From positions 2,480,001 to 2,544,000 of the forward strand of contig NZ_WYDQ01000001.1 of assembly GCF_024105635.1 (NCBI RefSeq): DNA of 64,000 nucleotides. Reading direction: 5' to 3'. Every line of letters starts with the position of its first letter. The stretch's first letter is position 1. Positions 46,238-53,325 of this stretch are shown piece after piece. Under the pieces are notes generated by a model, which saw only the letters and a list, made by a program, of their open reading frames with translations, had not been told where the DNA came from and searched no databases. Origin of the DNA: Oceanicola sp. 502str15 (GTDB lineage: Bacteria; Pseudomonadota; Alphaproteobacteria; Rhodobacterales; Rhodobacteraceae). The position numbers and the translations under genes are program-made.

Positions 46238-47143
46238 TTAGTTGCTCTTCGCCTGACGGGCGGCGACGATGCTCTCGTAGGCTTCGTGGGTGATCGGGTC
46301 GAAGCCCAGGCTCTCACCGGCAGAGATGTTGTAGGTGCACTCGGCGTCGGCCTCGTACATGCCGTCGACCAGCGCGGTCATCTTCACCTTCACCTCTTCG
46401 GGCAGCGCGGTGCGCAGCACAATCGGGCCTTCCGGGATCGGCTTGGAGCGCCAGATCTCGACCAGATCGTTCATGTCGACGAGGCCCGCATCAACCGCCT
46501 TGCGCAGCGCGCCGGAGTTGTAGCCGTCTTCCCACTCGCCCTGACCGTCGGCCCAGGTCACACCGGCGTCGACGTCGCCGTTGTTCACCGCAACGATGGT
46601 CTGCTCGTGGCCGCCGGTAAAGGTGACATCGGCAAAATAGGCGCCGGGCTCCATGGTGATGCCCTCACCGGCAGTGGGGATCTCGACCGAAGGGATCAGG
46701 TAGCCCGAGGTGGAGTTGGGATCGCCGAAACCGAAGGTCTTGCCCTGCATGTCGGCCAGCGAGGTGATGCCGCTGTCCTTGCGGGCAAAACCGATCGAGT
46801 GGTAGCCATAGGAGCCGTCGAGGTTGATCTTCACCAGCACCGGGGTCACCGCCTCGGGGTCTTGCAGGTAAACACCGGCATAGGCCGAGGCGCCGAGCCA
46901 GGCCATGTCGAGCGTGCCGCCGAGCAGGCCCTGCATCACGCCGTTGTAGTCGGCCGGGGCGAAGAGCTTCACCGGAACGCCGAGCGCCTCTTCGGTGTAG
47001 TTCTTCAGGCATTCATGGTTGTTCATCCGGTCCTGGGCGTTTTCGCCGCCGAGGATGCCGATGTTGAACTCGCTGATGTCCTGCGCGGCGGCGGCGCCTG
47101 CGAGGGCGGTGGTCGCCAGGGCGGCGGCAATAAGGTGTTTCAT
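46238..47143 (-). CDS. phnD: Phosphonate ABC transporter substrate-binding protein
   Basis: A 301-residue periplasmic protein with signal peptide MKHLIAAALATTALAGAAAAQ. Family blocks are FNIGILGGENAQDRM, LFAPADYNGVMQGLLGGTLDMAWLG, FGFGDPNSTSGYLIPSVE and TFTGGHEQTIVAVNNGDVDAGVT; the STSG stretch and nearby His and Asp residues bind the phosphonate group. The ATG at 47143 gives the signal peptide; the extra 13 codons upstream do not. It follows phnC by 63 bases. Confidence 0.96.
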   Translation of the reverse strand: MKHLIAAALATTALAGAAAAQDISEFNIGILGGENAQDRMNNHECLKNYTEEALGVPVKLFAPADYNGVMQGLLGGTLDMAWLGASAYAGVYLQDPEAVTPVLVKINLDGSYGYHSIGFARKDSGITSLADMQGKTFGFGDPNSTSGYLIPSVEIPTAGEGITMEPGAYFADVTFTGGHEQTIVAVNNGDVDAGVTWADGQGEWEDGYNSGALRKAVDAGLVDMNDLVEIWRSKPIPEGPIVLRTALPEEVKVKMTALVDGMYEADAECTYNISAGESLGFDPITHEAYESIVAARQAKSN

Positions 47144-47206
47144 CTCTGTCTCTCTCTTTCCGGTTTGGTCTGGATGCCCCATGCGTGTGCAGGGCGGGTT
47201 GGAAAC

Positions 47207-48055
47207 TCAGGCGCCGAGCGGCGGGTGCTCCATTTCGTCGGCGCGGGGGTGGGCGGTGCGGTCAGGCGCGGCGGCGTCAACGCTCTCGATCTCGGTCGAG
47301 GTGGCCGCTTCGCTGAAGCTCTGGTCAGCGCCGTAGATCTCGCGGGCCATGTCGGTGGTGAGCTGCTCGGGCAGCCCGTCGAACACGATGCGCCCGTCGC
47401 GCATGCCAATCACCCGGTCGCAATAGCGCCGCGCGGTGTCGAGCGTGTGCAGGTTGGCAATGACGGTGCGCCCGTCTTCCTCGTGGATGCGGCGCAGCGA
47501 TTGCATGACGACCTGGGCATTCATCGGGTCGAGCGAGGCAATCGGCTCGTCGGCCAAAATGATCTTCGGGTCCTGCATCAGCGCCCGGGCAATCGCCACG
47601 CGCTGCTGCTGCCCGCCGCTGAGCGCCTCGGCCCGCTTGGGCGCCTGCTCGGCAATGCCGAGCCGGTCGAGGATGTCGATGGCGCGGTGGATGTCCGCGG
47701 CGGGGTAGAGGTTGAAGAAGGTCGCAAAGCTGGAGCGGCGCCCGAGCGTGCCGTGCAGCACGTTCGACACCACGTCCATCCGCGGCACCAGGTTGAATTG
47801 CTGAAAGATCATCGCGCAGTCGGCCTGCCACGCCCGCCGGCCCGCCCCACTCAGCGACAGCACATCGCGGCCCTCGTAACGGACCGCCCCCTCCGAGGCA
47901 TCGGTCAGCCGGTTGAGCATCCGCAGCAGCGTCGATTTCCCGGCACCGGAGCGCCCGATGATCCCGATCATCATCGGCTTGTCGACGCTGAAGCTCGCAG
48001 CGCTTACGGCCGTATTTGCGCCAAAGCGCTTGGTCAGCTTGTCGATGACGAGCAT
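47207..48055 (-). CDS. phnC: Phosphonate ABC transporter ATP-binding protein
   Basis: A 282-residue ATPase with Walker [10 protein letters not shown] near residue 35, [18 protein letters not shown], signature [16 protein letters not shown] and Walker [13 protein letters not shown]. The last 35 or so residues are an acidic tail ([19 protein letters not shown]) beyond the usual PhnC end. The start [12 protein letters not shown] at 48055 fits the family; an upstream Met at 48100 is rejected. It is the first gene of phnC-phnD-phnE-phnE-transferase and lies 52 bases downstream of a Pho-box-like element. Confidence 0.96.
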
Positions 48056-48107
48056 GCAGTCCCCCGGTTCAGTCCGGGGCAGGTAGCAGGGAAGGCGCAA
48101 AGCCCGT

Positions 48108-48136
48108 GTGACACTCCCGTAAAGCTTTCATGACAC
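48108..48136 (-). promoter_or_regulatory. Three-part Pho box upstream of phnC
   Basis: Read on the minus strand, GTGTCAT (48136-48130), GCTTTAC (48125-48119) and GTGTCAC (48114-48108) are 7-base units, each separated by 4 bases, giving the 11-base period of PhoB sites. The outer two match the CTGTCAT consensus at 5-6 positions; the middle one is degenerate. It should link phnCDE expression to phosphate starvation through PhoB. Confidence 0.6.
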
Positions 48137-48590
48137 CACGCAGCCAGGACGACATGGCAGCACGTGCCCCGCCATCGGTCAGGCACTGCGCTACAGCACG
48201 GTCGGGACCAACGATGGCCCACGACCGGATGCGCACACGAAACAGGGAGGTCGAAGCGGGCAGCCCGATGGTGCCGTTCCGCTTCGCCTCCGCGCTCCCT
48301 GCGGAACCGCCCTCCATATGAGCCGCGCCTTCCGGCGCGGCGTTCCCGCCTGCAGAGCGTGCTGTGCCTTCGGCTAGGCAATGCGCTTCAGTACCGTCTG
48401 TACCGCCGCTGCCACACGACCGGGCGCGCCACCCGACGGAGAGGTCGAAACTCCAAGCCCGGTTGCGCCCTTCGGCGAGGCATCCCGCCATGTGGCGCTG
48501 CCTGCGGCAGCGCTCCTCTCTGCGGCCACGCCTTGCGGCGCGGCGATCTCGTCGGCACCACGTGCCGCGCCATCGGCTGTTCACTACGCT

Positions 48591-48980
48591 TCAGTAAGGT
48601 CTGTACCGTTGCTGGCTCATGGCCGGATGCGCCCACCAACGAAGAGCTAGAACCGCCCTGCACGGTGAAGCCTCTACGCGCCGCCTGTGGCGCCGTAGCG
48701 CTGCCTGTGTCACCGCTCCCTTCGTGGGCCGCGCCTTGCGGCGCGGCGTTCCCGTCTGCAGAACGTGCCGTGCCTTCGGCAAGGCACTGCGCTTCAGTAC
48801 GGACTGTACCGTTGCTGCCTCACGACCGGGCGCGCCGCCCGACAGAGAGGTCGAAGCGGGCAGCACGGTGGCACCCTTCGGCGACGCCTCCCGCCCCGTG
48901 GCGCTGCCTGCGGCAGCGCTCCTCTCGGCGGCCACGCCTTGCGACGCGGCGATCTCGTCGGCACCACGTGCCGCTACCGG
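48591..48980 (-). other. Open frame through repeat units 4 and 3, related to the chemoreceptor tail
   Basis: Directly after the TAG that ends unit 5's frame, the same frame stays open for about 130 codons. Its first part reads like the receptor tail: ERSAAAGSATGREASPKGAT, then [21 protein letters not shown], where the stop codon is replaced by Leu-Pro-Lys. The rest loses similarity because the 203-base period of unit 3 shifts the frame. It is probably not a gene by itself; it lacks a convincing start site and ribosome site. It is listed because it preserves the coding character of the repeat. Confidence 0.5.
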
Positions 48981-48983
48981 CTA

Positions 48984-49181
48984 GGCACTCCGCTTCAGTA
49001 AGGTCTGTACCGTTTCTGGCTCATGGCCGGATGCGCCCGCCAACGAGGAGGTCGACGCGGGCAGCCCGCTGGCACCCTTCGGCAATGCCTCCCGCCCCGT
49101 GGCGCTGCCTGCGGCAGCGCCACCCTCGGTGGCCACGCCTTGCGGCGCGGCACCCTCGTCGGCAGCACGTGCCGCTATCGG
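48984..49181 (-). other. Second receptor-tail cassette in unit 5 (66 codons, stop to stop)
   Basis: Reading on past the chemoreceptor TAG in the same frame gives exactly 66 sense codons and another TAG. The translation includes AADEGAAPQGVATEGGAAAG, LPKGASGLPASTSSLAG and ETVQTLLKRSA, plainly similar to the real receptor tail ([17 protein letters not shown] and AQTVLKRSA). A single read-through of the first stop would add this cassette. No start codon or ribosome site of its own is evident. Confidence 0.6.
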
Positions 49182-52085
49182 CTAGGCACTGCGCTTCAGA
49201 ACAGTCTGTGCCGCTGCTGCCTCACGACCGGGTGCGCCCCTCGATGAAGAGCTCGAACCGCTCAGCACGGTGGTGCCGCTTCGCGACCCCTTCGGCGCCT
49301 TGGCGCTGCCTGCGGCAGCGCTCCCTACGGGGGCCGCGCCTTCAGGCGCGGCGCTCTCGTGGGTGCGGAACCGGGCGGAAAGATCAAACAGGGTGCGGGC
49401 CTCTTCGGTCAGCAGCTGGCTGGAGGCCGCGGATTGCTCGAACATCGCGGCATTGTCCTGGGTCGCCCGGTCGAGCTGGGCCACCGCATGGCTGATTTCG
49501 CGCACGCCGGAGGATTGCTCGTTGGCGGCCCCGGCGATCGCCGTGATCTGGCCCGAAACCTCGCTGACCAGGTCGAGGATCCCGTCGAGCGCATCGCCGG
49601 CCTCGCCCACCTGAGAGACACCGCGGGTGATCCTGTCGCGGGTCGCATTGATGAGCCCGTTGATCTCCTTGGCCGCATCGGACGACCGATGGGCCAGCGA
49701 GCGCACCTCCATGGCCACGACCGCAAAGCCGCGGCCCTGCTCGCCGGCCCGTGCCGCCTCGACCCCGGCGTTCAGCGCCAGCAGGTTGGTCTGAAAGGCA
49801 ATGTCGTCGATCAGGTCGACGATCTTGGAGATGGCGGCAGAAGAGGCCTCGACCTCCGTCATCGTCGCCACCGCGCCGCGCACCGTGCTCTGGCTCGACT
49901 CTGCATTGTCGCGGGTGACCTGCATGATGCGATCCGCCTCGCGGGCCCGGTCGGCGGTGGCACCGGCGCTTTCGCTCAACTCGGTCACGGCGGCGCTGGT
50001 CTGTTCGAGGGTTGCGGCGCTGCTTTCGGTGCGGCGGGCAAGGTCCTTCGCCGCCGCAGAAATATCCTGCGAAGTGGTCTTCACCGTGTCGGCACTGGCC
50101 GAGAGGGCGGTGATGAGCTGCTCCAGCGTAAGCACGGCGGCGTTGAAATTCCGGCGCAGGCTCTCGTAGGTTCCCGCAAATTCGGTGTCGATGCTCACAG
50201 TCAGATCGCCGGCAGCAAGCTGATCGAGCGCCGTGGCCAGGCGTTCCACCACCAGCTCCTGCTCGTCCGCCCGCGCCTTGCGCTCTTCCTCTGCGGCGGC
50301 CCGGATGCGTTCGCGCTCCTCGGCCTCGGCGGCCTCGCGCTGGCGGGTCTCCTCTTCGCGCTTGCGCTCCGCGGCTTCGGCCTCCGCCGCCCTTGCACGC
50401 TCGCGGGCCTCCGCCTCTCTTTCCTTTTCGCGCGCCTGCGCCTCGCGCTCCGCCTCGGCCTCCTGCATCTTCTGCCGTTCGATCATCCCGTCCCGGAACA
50501 CCTTCAGGGCGCCCGCCATCCGGCCGATCTCCCCCCCGGTGCGGTCAAATCCCTCCACCGGCGCCAAGTCACCGCGCGACAGCCGCTCGGTCGCCTGGGT
50601 CACGCGCGCCATGGGGCGCAGGATCAGCGCCCAGGTCAGGATCGGTGCGGCCAGCAGGAGAATCAGGCTCGCAATCGCAATGATCTTGAACTCCGCGCGC
50701 GCTACATCGGCCTGCGACAGGATCTCCTCGCTGCTCGCCACCACCTCGGTCATCGCCAGCTGGGCATTGCCGCGTGCCGCCTCGACGATCTGCGCGATCG
50801 CGGCCCCCGACACATTCGACCGTCTGAAGGCCGCATTGCGGGCCTCGAGCATCTGACGGCGGGCGTCGACGACGCCGCCTTCCGCGGCAACGATCTGGTG
50901 CATTTCGTCCATCACCGCCACGAGGCTCTCGGGCAGCTCGTGCCCTGCAAGCAAGCCGTCGAGGTGGTTCAGCGCATCGTCGACAGAGGCCTGCGCCCCG
51001 GCCGCGGTGCCAACATCCTGCGCCGCCGCCCCGAGCAGAGCCTTGGCGAGCACCGCCTTCACCGAGATGCCGATCTCGCTCGAAGTGCGCATCTTGCTCA
51101 CCTGCTCGTCCAGCAGGGTCCGGATCGCCGCCTCGTTTCCGCTGGCGGCCTCTTGCGCCCGCTCCGTCAGCGCGGCATTCATCGCCTCGATCGCGCCGTT
51201 CACCGCCGTTGCGCTCGCCTGCCGCTGCGACAGCACCTCCTGCCGGAGATCGGCGCGTTGGTAGTCATTCTGCTCCTGCCGTGCCCGGAAGAACTCGGCG
51301 CTCGCGGCGATCTCGCCCATCAGCACGGCAGGCACCGCGCCCTCGGGCAGTTCGGACAGGGCGGTGTCGAGCTGGGCGAGGCTCTCTGCCGCCAGGTCGC
51401 CGAGGATCACCTCCATGAACATGTCCGGCTCATCCGCCAGCACCAGGGTCAAGCCGCTGAGAAGGTTGATCTCCGCCCGCGCGCGCATCAGCGCCAGCAT
51501 CTGGCTGAACTCCTCCTTCACCAGCGCCCCAAGCGTGGCCTTCACCGTTTCCACGGTATCCTCGCCGCCGATCTGAAGCTCGAAATAGGCATCATCGCCG
51601 AGCCCCACCATCGCGCCATTCGCCTCGTCCGAAAGCGTCACGAAGGCCTCCACCATCTCGCGCACCCGGTCCTGCTCGGAGAACCGCTCTTCCAGCGCCC
51701 GGACCATCGCCGCATTGGCGATGTCGAGTTCGGCCAGGAGCGGGTCGATCTCTTCGCGGGCGCCCGGGGCAAGGCGGCGGGTGGCGGCCTTGAGCGCGGT
51801 CACACCGTCCTGCAGCTCGGTGCCGGCGGTCTTGAGCGCCCCGGCGTCCCCGGCGAGCAGCACCCCGTTCAGCGCGCCCTGCACCGCGCCGGTCTGCGCC
51901 GTCACCTCCATGCTCGCCTCGATCCCCGGCAGGTTCTCGTCGATGAAGGCCTGCAGCGCGCCCGACAGGGCGCCGAACACGAACATCCCGATCGCCACAG
52001 CCGCCAGGACCATGGCACCGAGGGCCATGAAGATGAGGCCGAACTTGGTGGCGATGCCGCCGAAGAAAGATCTGATACGGGTCAC
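49182..52085 (-). CDS. Methyl-accepting chemotaxis protein with large sensory domain
   Basis: A 967-residue chemoreceptor. Helix 1 is at about residues 10-38 ([21 protein letters not shown]), and a mostly helical extracytoplasmic domain of about 430 residues follows. Helix 2 ([20 protein letters not shown]) lies near 480, then a HAMP domain. Next comes a highly charged Glu/Arg/Ala helix (about 540-610), a second HAMP-like segment ([21 protein letters not shown]) and the signalling hairpin, with its conserved tip [33 protein letters not shown] (given here only to locate it, near 780-810). The last 59 residues are Ser/Ala/Gly-rich and come from a tandem repeat unit. The start is GTG at 52085 with a GGAGA site. 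The upstream orphan binding protein may present ligands to it. Confidence 0.93.
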
Positions 52086-52164
52086 GTTGCGTCTCCGCGC
52101 CTTGAAACTCTGCAATCGTCCCGGCGCGGCACCGAGGCCGGCCGGGACGGGTAAATCATGCCGG

Positions 52165-53325
52165 TCAGGAACCGCCACCGCTCACCACCGTCTCGAAGCC
52201 GCCACCGGCGGTGATCCGGGTGAGAAACACGGCATCCAAGCCTTGGTTGTCGCCCGGCCCGTAGCTGAAGCCGAGGCCCCCGAGGTCGAAGCTGCCAAGC
52301 CCGGCCAGCGCCGCCAGAAAGCTCTCGCGGGTCACATCCTTGCCGGCAGCCTCCAGGGCGCGCAGCGCGACGCGGCCGGTCAGATAGCCCTCGAGGGTCA
52401 CGAACCCGGGGTGCGCATCGGGGCTCATCGCCAGCATTGCGGCCTGATACTCGGCCACCACCGGCAGCGAGGCATCCCAGGGGAAGGGCACCACCTGGCT
52501 GATGATCACCCCTTCGCCCGCCTCGCCCAGCTCCCCGGCCAGCGCCTCGGAGCCGACAAAGGAGATGTTCACGAAGGTCGGCTCGAACTTCAGCTTCTTC
52601 GACAGCCGGATGAACTCTGCAATCGGCTTGTACGCCCCCACCATCACCACGGCATCGGGCTTGGCCTTGCGGATCTCGATCAGCGCAGACTTCACGGCCA
52701 CGGTGTTGCGGGTGTAGCTGCCCGAGGCGGCAAGGCTCATGCCGCGCCGGTCGAGCGCCGCCGTCACCCCCTCGAGGCCGACCCGGCCGAAGCCGTCATC
52801 CTGATAGAGAATTGCGATGTTCTGCATCCCGAGCTCATCGACCAGATGGGCGATCCAGGCCTCGGTTTCCGCCCCATAGGTGGCGCGCACGTTGACCACA
52901 TTCGTCAGCTCCGGCGCCCGCAGAAAGCCCGCCCCGGTGAAGGGGCCGACATAGGGCATGTTGGCCGCCGTCGCCTCGGGCTGGGTGGCAAGGGCGGTGG
53001 GGGTGCCGACCGGGCCGATGAAGCCGATATGCCCGCCCCCTTCGATCACATGCAGCACATGGGCCACCGAGCGATCGGGCTCATACCCGTCATCAAGGCT
53101 CTCCAGCCGCACCATGCGACCATGCACGCCACCGGCGCGGTTGGCCTCCTCGAAGGCCGCGAGAATGCCGCTTCGCATCCCCTGCCCGAGCGCCGCAGCC
53201 GGGCCCTCCATGGCCGCCACCTGGGCGAAATGAACTGCATCCGGCTCCACCCCGTCGGCAGCCATCAGCGGGCTGCTCATCATCAGGGCGGCAAGGGGGG
53301 CGGCGAATTTACGCAGGGCTCTCAT
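52165..53325 (-). CDS. ABC-type substrate-binding protein, branched-chain amino acid/amide type
   Basis: A 386-residue periplasmic protein of the LivJ/AmiC class. [22 protein letters not shown] is the signal peptide. [31 protein letters not shown] and [19 protein letters not shown] are typical of the class, as is [13 protein letters not shown]. The ATG at 53325 follows GGAG at 6 bases; an upstream in-frame ATG at 53337 is possible. No permease or ATPase gene accompanies it, and the chemoreceptor gene starts 79 bases downstream on the same strand. It may therefore work as a sensing partner, not only a transport protein. Confidence 0.9.

Follow-up and report, generated by a model that had tools for sequence, protein, structure and literature searches.

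A hairpin-bearing tandem array at the 3′ end of a chemoreceptor gene in Oceanicola sp. 502str15

DNA mini-hairpins with GNA loops, such as GCGAAGC, are unusually stable in single-stranded DNA and are known from replication origins and aptamers. A literature search for a link between chemoreceptors or chemotaxis and tandem repeats returned none, subscription journals lying mostly outside its reach. For tandem repeats elsewhere, the study of Borg elements describes fast-evolving, independently arisen arrays within and between genes, lists a conserved repeat hotspot and reports very strong selection on the protein sequence of the in-frame repeats (PMC9879509). Short palindromes 3′ of genes are familiar as REP/BIME elements, which may act in RNA, are dispersed in many copies and carry GTAG or CGTC tags (PMC3733652).

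Here, we analysed a 64,000-nucleotide window of the 4.44 Mb genome of the marine bacterium Oceanicola sp. 502str15 (G000 below), in which the end of a chemoreceptor gene is repeated. Tandem arrays of this general type are known, but the seed and the setting are unusual here. On balance, we take the array to be noncoding and to have arisen in this lineage by tandem amplification of the receptor 3′ end with its hairpins, and we take the gene end to be a duplication hotspot of the genus.

The receptor gene and its repeat units

On the minus strand, the receptor gene is followed by the array, a direct repeat that we take to be a Pho box, phnC, phnD and two phnE genes (Table 1). The longest receptor frame comprises 998 aa, but the true start is probably internal to it, giving about 964-967 aa; the closest orthologs belong to Vannielia litorea and Oceanicola sp. 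D3. The receptor ends in LKRSA, its orthologs in the genus in ARSA or ALSA, and the W-x-x-F ending, i.e. the CheR-binding pentapeptide of MCPs, is absent from this C-terminus.

A terminal W-x-x-F/Y pentapeptide is present in 58 of the best 120 of 578 MCP relatives (P0001-P0120). The other 62 have A, S or G as the final residue in 58 cases, and 32 of the 62 carry a basic residue one to three places earlier (RSA, KSA, RAA, RAG). Such endings, counted here among MCP relatives only, may constitute a second C-terminal signal. Caulobacter receptors bear a protease tag at the C-terminus, and by analogy these endings could perhaps be a protease tag as well.

Table 1. Positions, in the window, of the receptor gene, the repeat units and their hairpins, and the neighbouring phn genes
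Feature	Position	Strand	Remarks
Methyl-accepting chemotaxis receptor gene	49182..52178	-	Pfam MCPsignal and HAMP; orthologs P0002-P0005 at 74-76% identity
Unit U1, repeat copy within the receptor gene	49182..49366 (cut as 49382-49182)	-	201 bp as cut; last ~59 residues, LKRSA-TAG
HP1 of U1	49333..49352	-	8-bp stem, 4-nt loop; exact stems also at 48728-48747 (U4) and 48322-48341 (U6)
HP2 of U1	49303..49321	-	8-bp stem, GCA loop; exact copies at 49102-49120 (U2), 48901-48919 (U3) and 48495-48513 (U5)
Unit U2	48981..49181	-	201 bp; stop-to-stop tail frame, 66 sense codons then TAG, LKRSA end
Unit U3	48780..48980	-	201 bp; tail frame open, TAG to TTG
Unit U4	48577..48779	-	203 bp; tail frame off the receptor's register, no terminal stop
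Unit U5	48374..48576	-	203 bp; tail frame off register, ends LKRIA-TAG
Unit U6	48180..48373	-	degenerate 194-bp copy, 9-bp gap
Pho-box-like direct repeat TGTCAT-N15-GTGTCA, 5′ of phnC	48109..48135	-	sole window match at up to 1 mismatch; 0.09 expected
phnC, phosphonate ABC transporter ATPase	47207..48055	-	NCBIfam TIGR02315 above cut-off
phnD, phosphonate-binding protein	46238..47182	-	NCBIfam TIGR03431 and TIGR01097 above cut-off (phnD/phnE)
Two phnE genes, after phnD	to 43993	-	NCBIfam TIGR03431 and TIGR01097 above cut-off (phnD/phnE)

The array is real. Tandem Repeats Finder (TRF) reports one array (48322-49360, period 203, 5.1 copies) with a score of 1089, while the runner-up of the window's 17 rows reaches 62; the array also fits a higher-order period of 406 bp (2.6 copies). 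It extends from 48180 to about 49366 and has five copies downstream of the gene. The six units, including a partial one adjoining the phnC side, share 67-88% pairwise identity and measure 201, 201, 201, 203, 203 and 194 bp from U1 to U6. As cut, the initial ~15 bases of U1 are receptor sequence unmatched in the other units. The first-pass annotation is thus confirmed in the points checked, except that its six units near 201 bp do not follow a uniform period, U4 and U5 being 203 bp long. One unit indeed encodes the final ~59 residues of the receptor up to LKRSA-TAG (U1), the adjacent one is an exact 66-codon stop-to-stop frame with the same ending (U2), and the next keeps the tail frame with its stop lost (U3).

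No unit copies were found elsewhere in the genome, since all 3 matches lie within the array (40 of 138 first-look candidates scored); a protein search recovered the tail in 1 of 198 family genomes, the window's own, and a near-match search of plasmids gave no match. Of the three other MCP genes of G000, two were readable (L137, L140) and had behind them only TRF scores of at most 50; the frames chosen for the third (L138) gave no recognizable MCP tail. Across 464 kb of G000, i.e. a 400-kb sample plus the window, arrays with a TRF score of at least 100 occur at six further places, four of them within long open frames. Separately, we noted a 238-bp unit present twice at L172:4822-5294, apparently mostly intergenic and with short palindromes, and a 39-bp unit repeated 17.5 times in a 400-kb sample of a relative, G004 (L195:5520-6190, TRF score 845).

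Coding content of the units

Are the downstream copies spare tails? The first-pass annotation had suggested that they might be silent cassettes, whose tail frames would swap into the receptor tail by recombination or lengthen it by stop read-through. The exact in-frame stop-to-stop tail of U2, and U3, in frame with its stop lost, speak for this proposal. However, U4 and U5, each 203 bp long, do not keep the receptor's register, leaving only two downstream units in its frame. In the tail frame, dN/dS for the ten U1-U5 pairs ranges from 0.46 to 1.21 with a mean of 0.84 (the initial 24 bases of the unit, the terminal codon and U6 left out) and gives no clear sign of purifying selection; the corresponding averages in the two shifted frames are 1.66 and 0.89. 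The pairs with the lowest values, U3-U5 (0.46) and U2-U5 (0.51), count in favour of cassettes and leave room for weak constraint. Variable columns number 19, 30 and 28 of 58 each at codon positions 1, 2 and 3, and third codon positions are therefore not outstanding. In a neutral simulation starting from the majority tail with the observed number of changes, all five frames stay open in 20% of cases, so that five open frames are within chance expectation (P about 0.20). By dN/dS, codon positions and neutral simulation, coding constraint of the kind expected in unexpressed copies that are kept as cassettes was not found in U2-U5.

Sequence exchange was assessed over segments of 50 bases. U2-U5 reach up to 47-48/50 mutually in a patchy manner, parts of U2 matching U4 at 47/50 and parts of U3 matching U5 at 48/50, whereas U1 reaches at most 43/50 with any unit. 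This mosaic identity suggests exchange among U2-U5, a point in favour of cassettes; since U1 stands apart, the exchange or duplication took place among the downstream units and not recently with the expressed tail. Indeed, by segment identity in this one genome, U1 is not a recent mosaic of donor units. In the relative G005, moreover, the repeat unit at this site is 31 bp long and the tail end therefore runs through all frames, which again argues against cassettes. The cassette reading, which we regard as very unlikely, is thus not supported by dN/dS, by the spread over codon positions, by the neutral simulation or by the segment comparison.

In our reading, U1 alone acts as a protein tail, and the other units drift near-neutrally as protein; we presume that they are untranslated. 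In G+C-rich DNA, gene-like open copies behind a gene are no evidence of spare coding cassettes. On the plus strand, a 443-aa open frame (window 48164-49495) spans the entire array and is probably a side effect of the high G+C content and the repeats.

The near-neutral codon pattern also fits a plain decaying tandem duplication, in which an old unequal crossover would have copied the gene end, the hairpins being incidental and the arrays of relatives coincidental. The 67-88% identity of the units agrees with decay, as does the mosaic 406-bp structure, which is expected from nested duplication. Raised already in the first-pass annotation, decay accounts well for the coding content, but alone it is unable to explain the conservation of the hairpins and the unrelated arrays of relatives described below. 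We consider it possible, though rather doubtful.

Hairpins in the units and in receptor tails of the genus

The strong hairpins noted at first sight were borne out: between 48151 and 49362, a scan for exact hairpins of at least 7 bp gave 12 rows, whereas 100 sequences simulated from this stretch with a first-order Markov model averaged 0.7, although several rows are one hairpin at two loop sizes and the rows are not independent because the units are copies. Two hairpins recur. HP1 is present as wobble-paired copies in U2, U3 and U5, with GCAA, GGAA or TGAA as loop; HP2 is imperfect in U4 and U6, and its GCA loop is ACA in U4. Of the HP1 and HP2 stem columns, 26/32 are invariant across the six units compared to 56/143 elsewhere, and in a circular-shift test 1 of 175 shifts, the true position counted, was as good. 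HP1 and HP2 are hence the best-kept part of the units. A conservation so far beyond the rest of the unit stands against plain decay.

Among 31 genomes, the exact HP1 pattern was found solely at this receptor tail in G000, G002, G003 and G004, with one copy elsewhere in G006 and one or two copies in each of 10 genomes outside the genus. HP1 is in place in four of five relatives, in three of them exactly; read by eye, it is broken in G005. The exact HP2 pattern occurred in G000 only.

We then compared the receptor tails, from the signalling domain to the stop, of six species, each represented by one genome (Vannielia and kin: G000, G002-G006); a seventh genome, G001, which also belongs to the genus and is 87% complete, had no ortholog-level match and is absent from the counts. 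In these tails, perfect hairpins with GNA or GNNA loops and a stem of at least 5 bp number 15 on the sense strand and 1 on the antisense strand, the loop class having been picked after inspection of these very tails. The remainder of the same loci holds 0.09-0.26 such hairpins per kb on the sense strand. Protein-preserving codon shuffles gave a mean of 1.2 (maximum 5 in 1000), and permuting each tail's own codons a mean of 1.5 (maximum 6). With any loop of 3-4 nt the excess is smaller (21 versus 8.9, largest shuffle 18). The independent cases are fewer than six, since G002 and G003 are close kin. Taken singly, the tails of G002, G003 and G004 are strong (0/1000) and that of G005 moderate (0.015), while G000 and G006, with one GNA hairpin each, are not significant (P about 0.15). 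By comparison, 59 other alphaproteobacterial MCP tails (80 loci taken, of which 21 gave no tail) contain 1 such hairpin in 5526 bp, i.e. 0.18 per kb versus 0.20 in the remainder of these loci, a figure that includes several tails cut to the 30-bp minimum and at least one (L102) apparently in the wrong frame.

At least three GNA hairpins within 200 bp occur once in 464 kb of G000, at a REP-like-looking repeat array, and nowhere in 400 kb of G004; the receptor locus of G000 is itself below this measure. A 49-bp unit repeated 3.5 times between converging genes (L170:17211-17383) forms a hairpin array that by eye resembles a REP-type palindrome cluster.

Could the hairpins be a structured RNA under selection? 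They would then make up the 3′ end of the receptor transcript, protecting it, pausing ribosomes or insulating the phn operon. A structured 3′ region had been suggested in the first-pass annotation, and HP1 and HP2 as the most conserved columns lend it partial, local support. The GNA/GNNA loops lie nearly all on the sense strand, as RNA would have it, yet this bias equally fits DNA hairpins of one strand or a Glu/Ala/Gly-rich tail. HP1, retained in most relatives, pairs in 48/48 cells when G-U is counted, i.e. partly via wobble pairs, and the three helices together pair in 92.9% of cells. Covariation is weak, however: of 21 tested pairs, 2 had both partners altered (one pair belonging to HP2, the other to a third small helix), and 18 of 500 shuffles were as high. 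Folding is likewise only mildly unusual. The z-scores of 12 units and tails range from +0.5 to -4.5, and 5/12 lie below -2 compared to 15% of 39 background windows (mean -0.35, sd 1.38), but the other 7 lie above -2, the G000 tail at -0.29. No Rfam family matched at E up to 1 in 47900-49600, and no intrinsic terminator was found. Furthermore, three species have just 67-84 bp from the stop to the Pho box. Selection for a structured RNA thus appears improbable to us.

The tails of the sister species G002 and G003 differ at 12 of 160 sites, and the differences fall at 7/19 loop, 2/76 stem and 3/65 other positions (Fisher P 0.0009 for loops versus the rest), three loops having two bases changed each. 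This result is based on those 12 differences, with classes assigned by hand and one 4-bp hairpin that overlaps two others omitted; a base counted as stem if it pairs in either species or in both, a rule that favours few stem changes. Measured against third codon positions in the body of the receptor (124/800), the loop excess has a P of 0.02. We speculate that the receptor tail could be a built-in instability module, in which a chain of special-loop hairpins within coding DNA would keep its stems by self-templated repair, change its loops two bases at once and throw off tandem copies downstream of the gene. Although we hold this to be unlikely, it would mean that the variety in tail and spacing of a single chemoreceptor within the genus comes from DNA structure and not from protein selection.

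The same site in related species

The distance from the receptor stop to the Pho box is 1046 bp in G000, 347 in G005, 109 in G004, 84 in both G002 and G003 and 67 in G006. G005 carries a 31-bp unit repeated 9.9 times, starting in the last receptor codons, and G004 a 30-bp unit repeated 3.3 times, starting just past the stop; G002, G003 and G006 have no array at the site. The array thus differs by lineage, being absent in three of five relatives and replaced by unrelated arrays in two. The units of G000, G004 and G005 resemble each other no better than shuffles do, and a common origin of the three arrays is therefore not supported, with little power given the short units. In the receptor tree, G004 and G006 are separated from a group of G000, G005 and the G002/G003 pair; one fork is unclear, and the phnC tree is weak. 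Separate origins are likely; alternatively, an ancestral array might have been lost.

Among the 59 other MCP ends, one carries an array with a TRF score of at least 60, compared to three of six species at this site (Fisher P about 0.002, by hand), which counts against coincidental arrays and a plain decaying duplication. Unrelated arrays at the same spot in two relatives make the site look like a hairpin-linked duplication hotspot, and we propose that the gene end is a hotspot because its coding DNA is a chain of short G+C-rich GNA/GNNA-loop hairpins. The array, its near-neutrality as protein, the best-kept hairpins, the hairpin-dense orthologous tails and the unrelated arrays at one site are established observations; the hairpins as cause of the duplications is what we infer. 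In vivo, the hairpins would form in single-stranded DNA at the gene end and stall or break replication, and slippage or break repair might then leave tandem copies. The stems could persist through palindrome-templated repair, one arm templating the other, through mild selection or through both. Two observations run counter to a hotspot of this kind: G002 and G003, with 3 and 4 hairpins, match any tail in number yet have no array, and HP1 is broken in G005 although its array is the second largest.

The locus offers a compact natural case in which to ask if tandem duplication and loop-focused mutation of bacterial chromosomes are driven by short, G+C-rich, special-loop hairpins: at one site, three of six related species have arrays, each with a different unit length, and three have none.

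How does the locus compare with the systems described so far? Like the reported repeats of Borg elements, the array is rapid and independent in origin; unlike them, it drifts as protein, mainly keeps its hairpins and resides in a G+C-rich chromosome (PMC9879509). HP1 and HP2, like REP/BIME elements, are short palindromes downstream of genes, but their exact patterns in G000 are confined to the array locus instead of being dispersed genome-wide, and no GTAG or CGTC tag was seen by eye (PMC3733652). With its head-to-tail copies at one locus, the array is a minisatellite, and it shares with bacterial minisatellites/VNTRs the nested higher-order repeats and the lineage-dependent presence and unit number. 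It differs from them in that its units are diverged, about 200 bp in length and thus long, and derived from the end of a gene, and in the unrelated arrays that occupy one site in related species. Finally, the hairpins belong to the GNA loop class closed by C-G pairs, as in the known mini-hairpins, but here they form a chain within the coding tail of a receptor.
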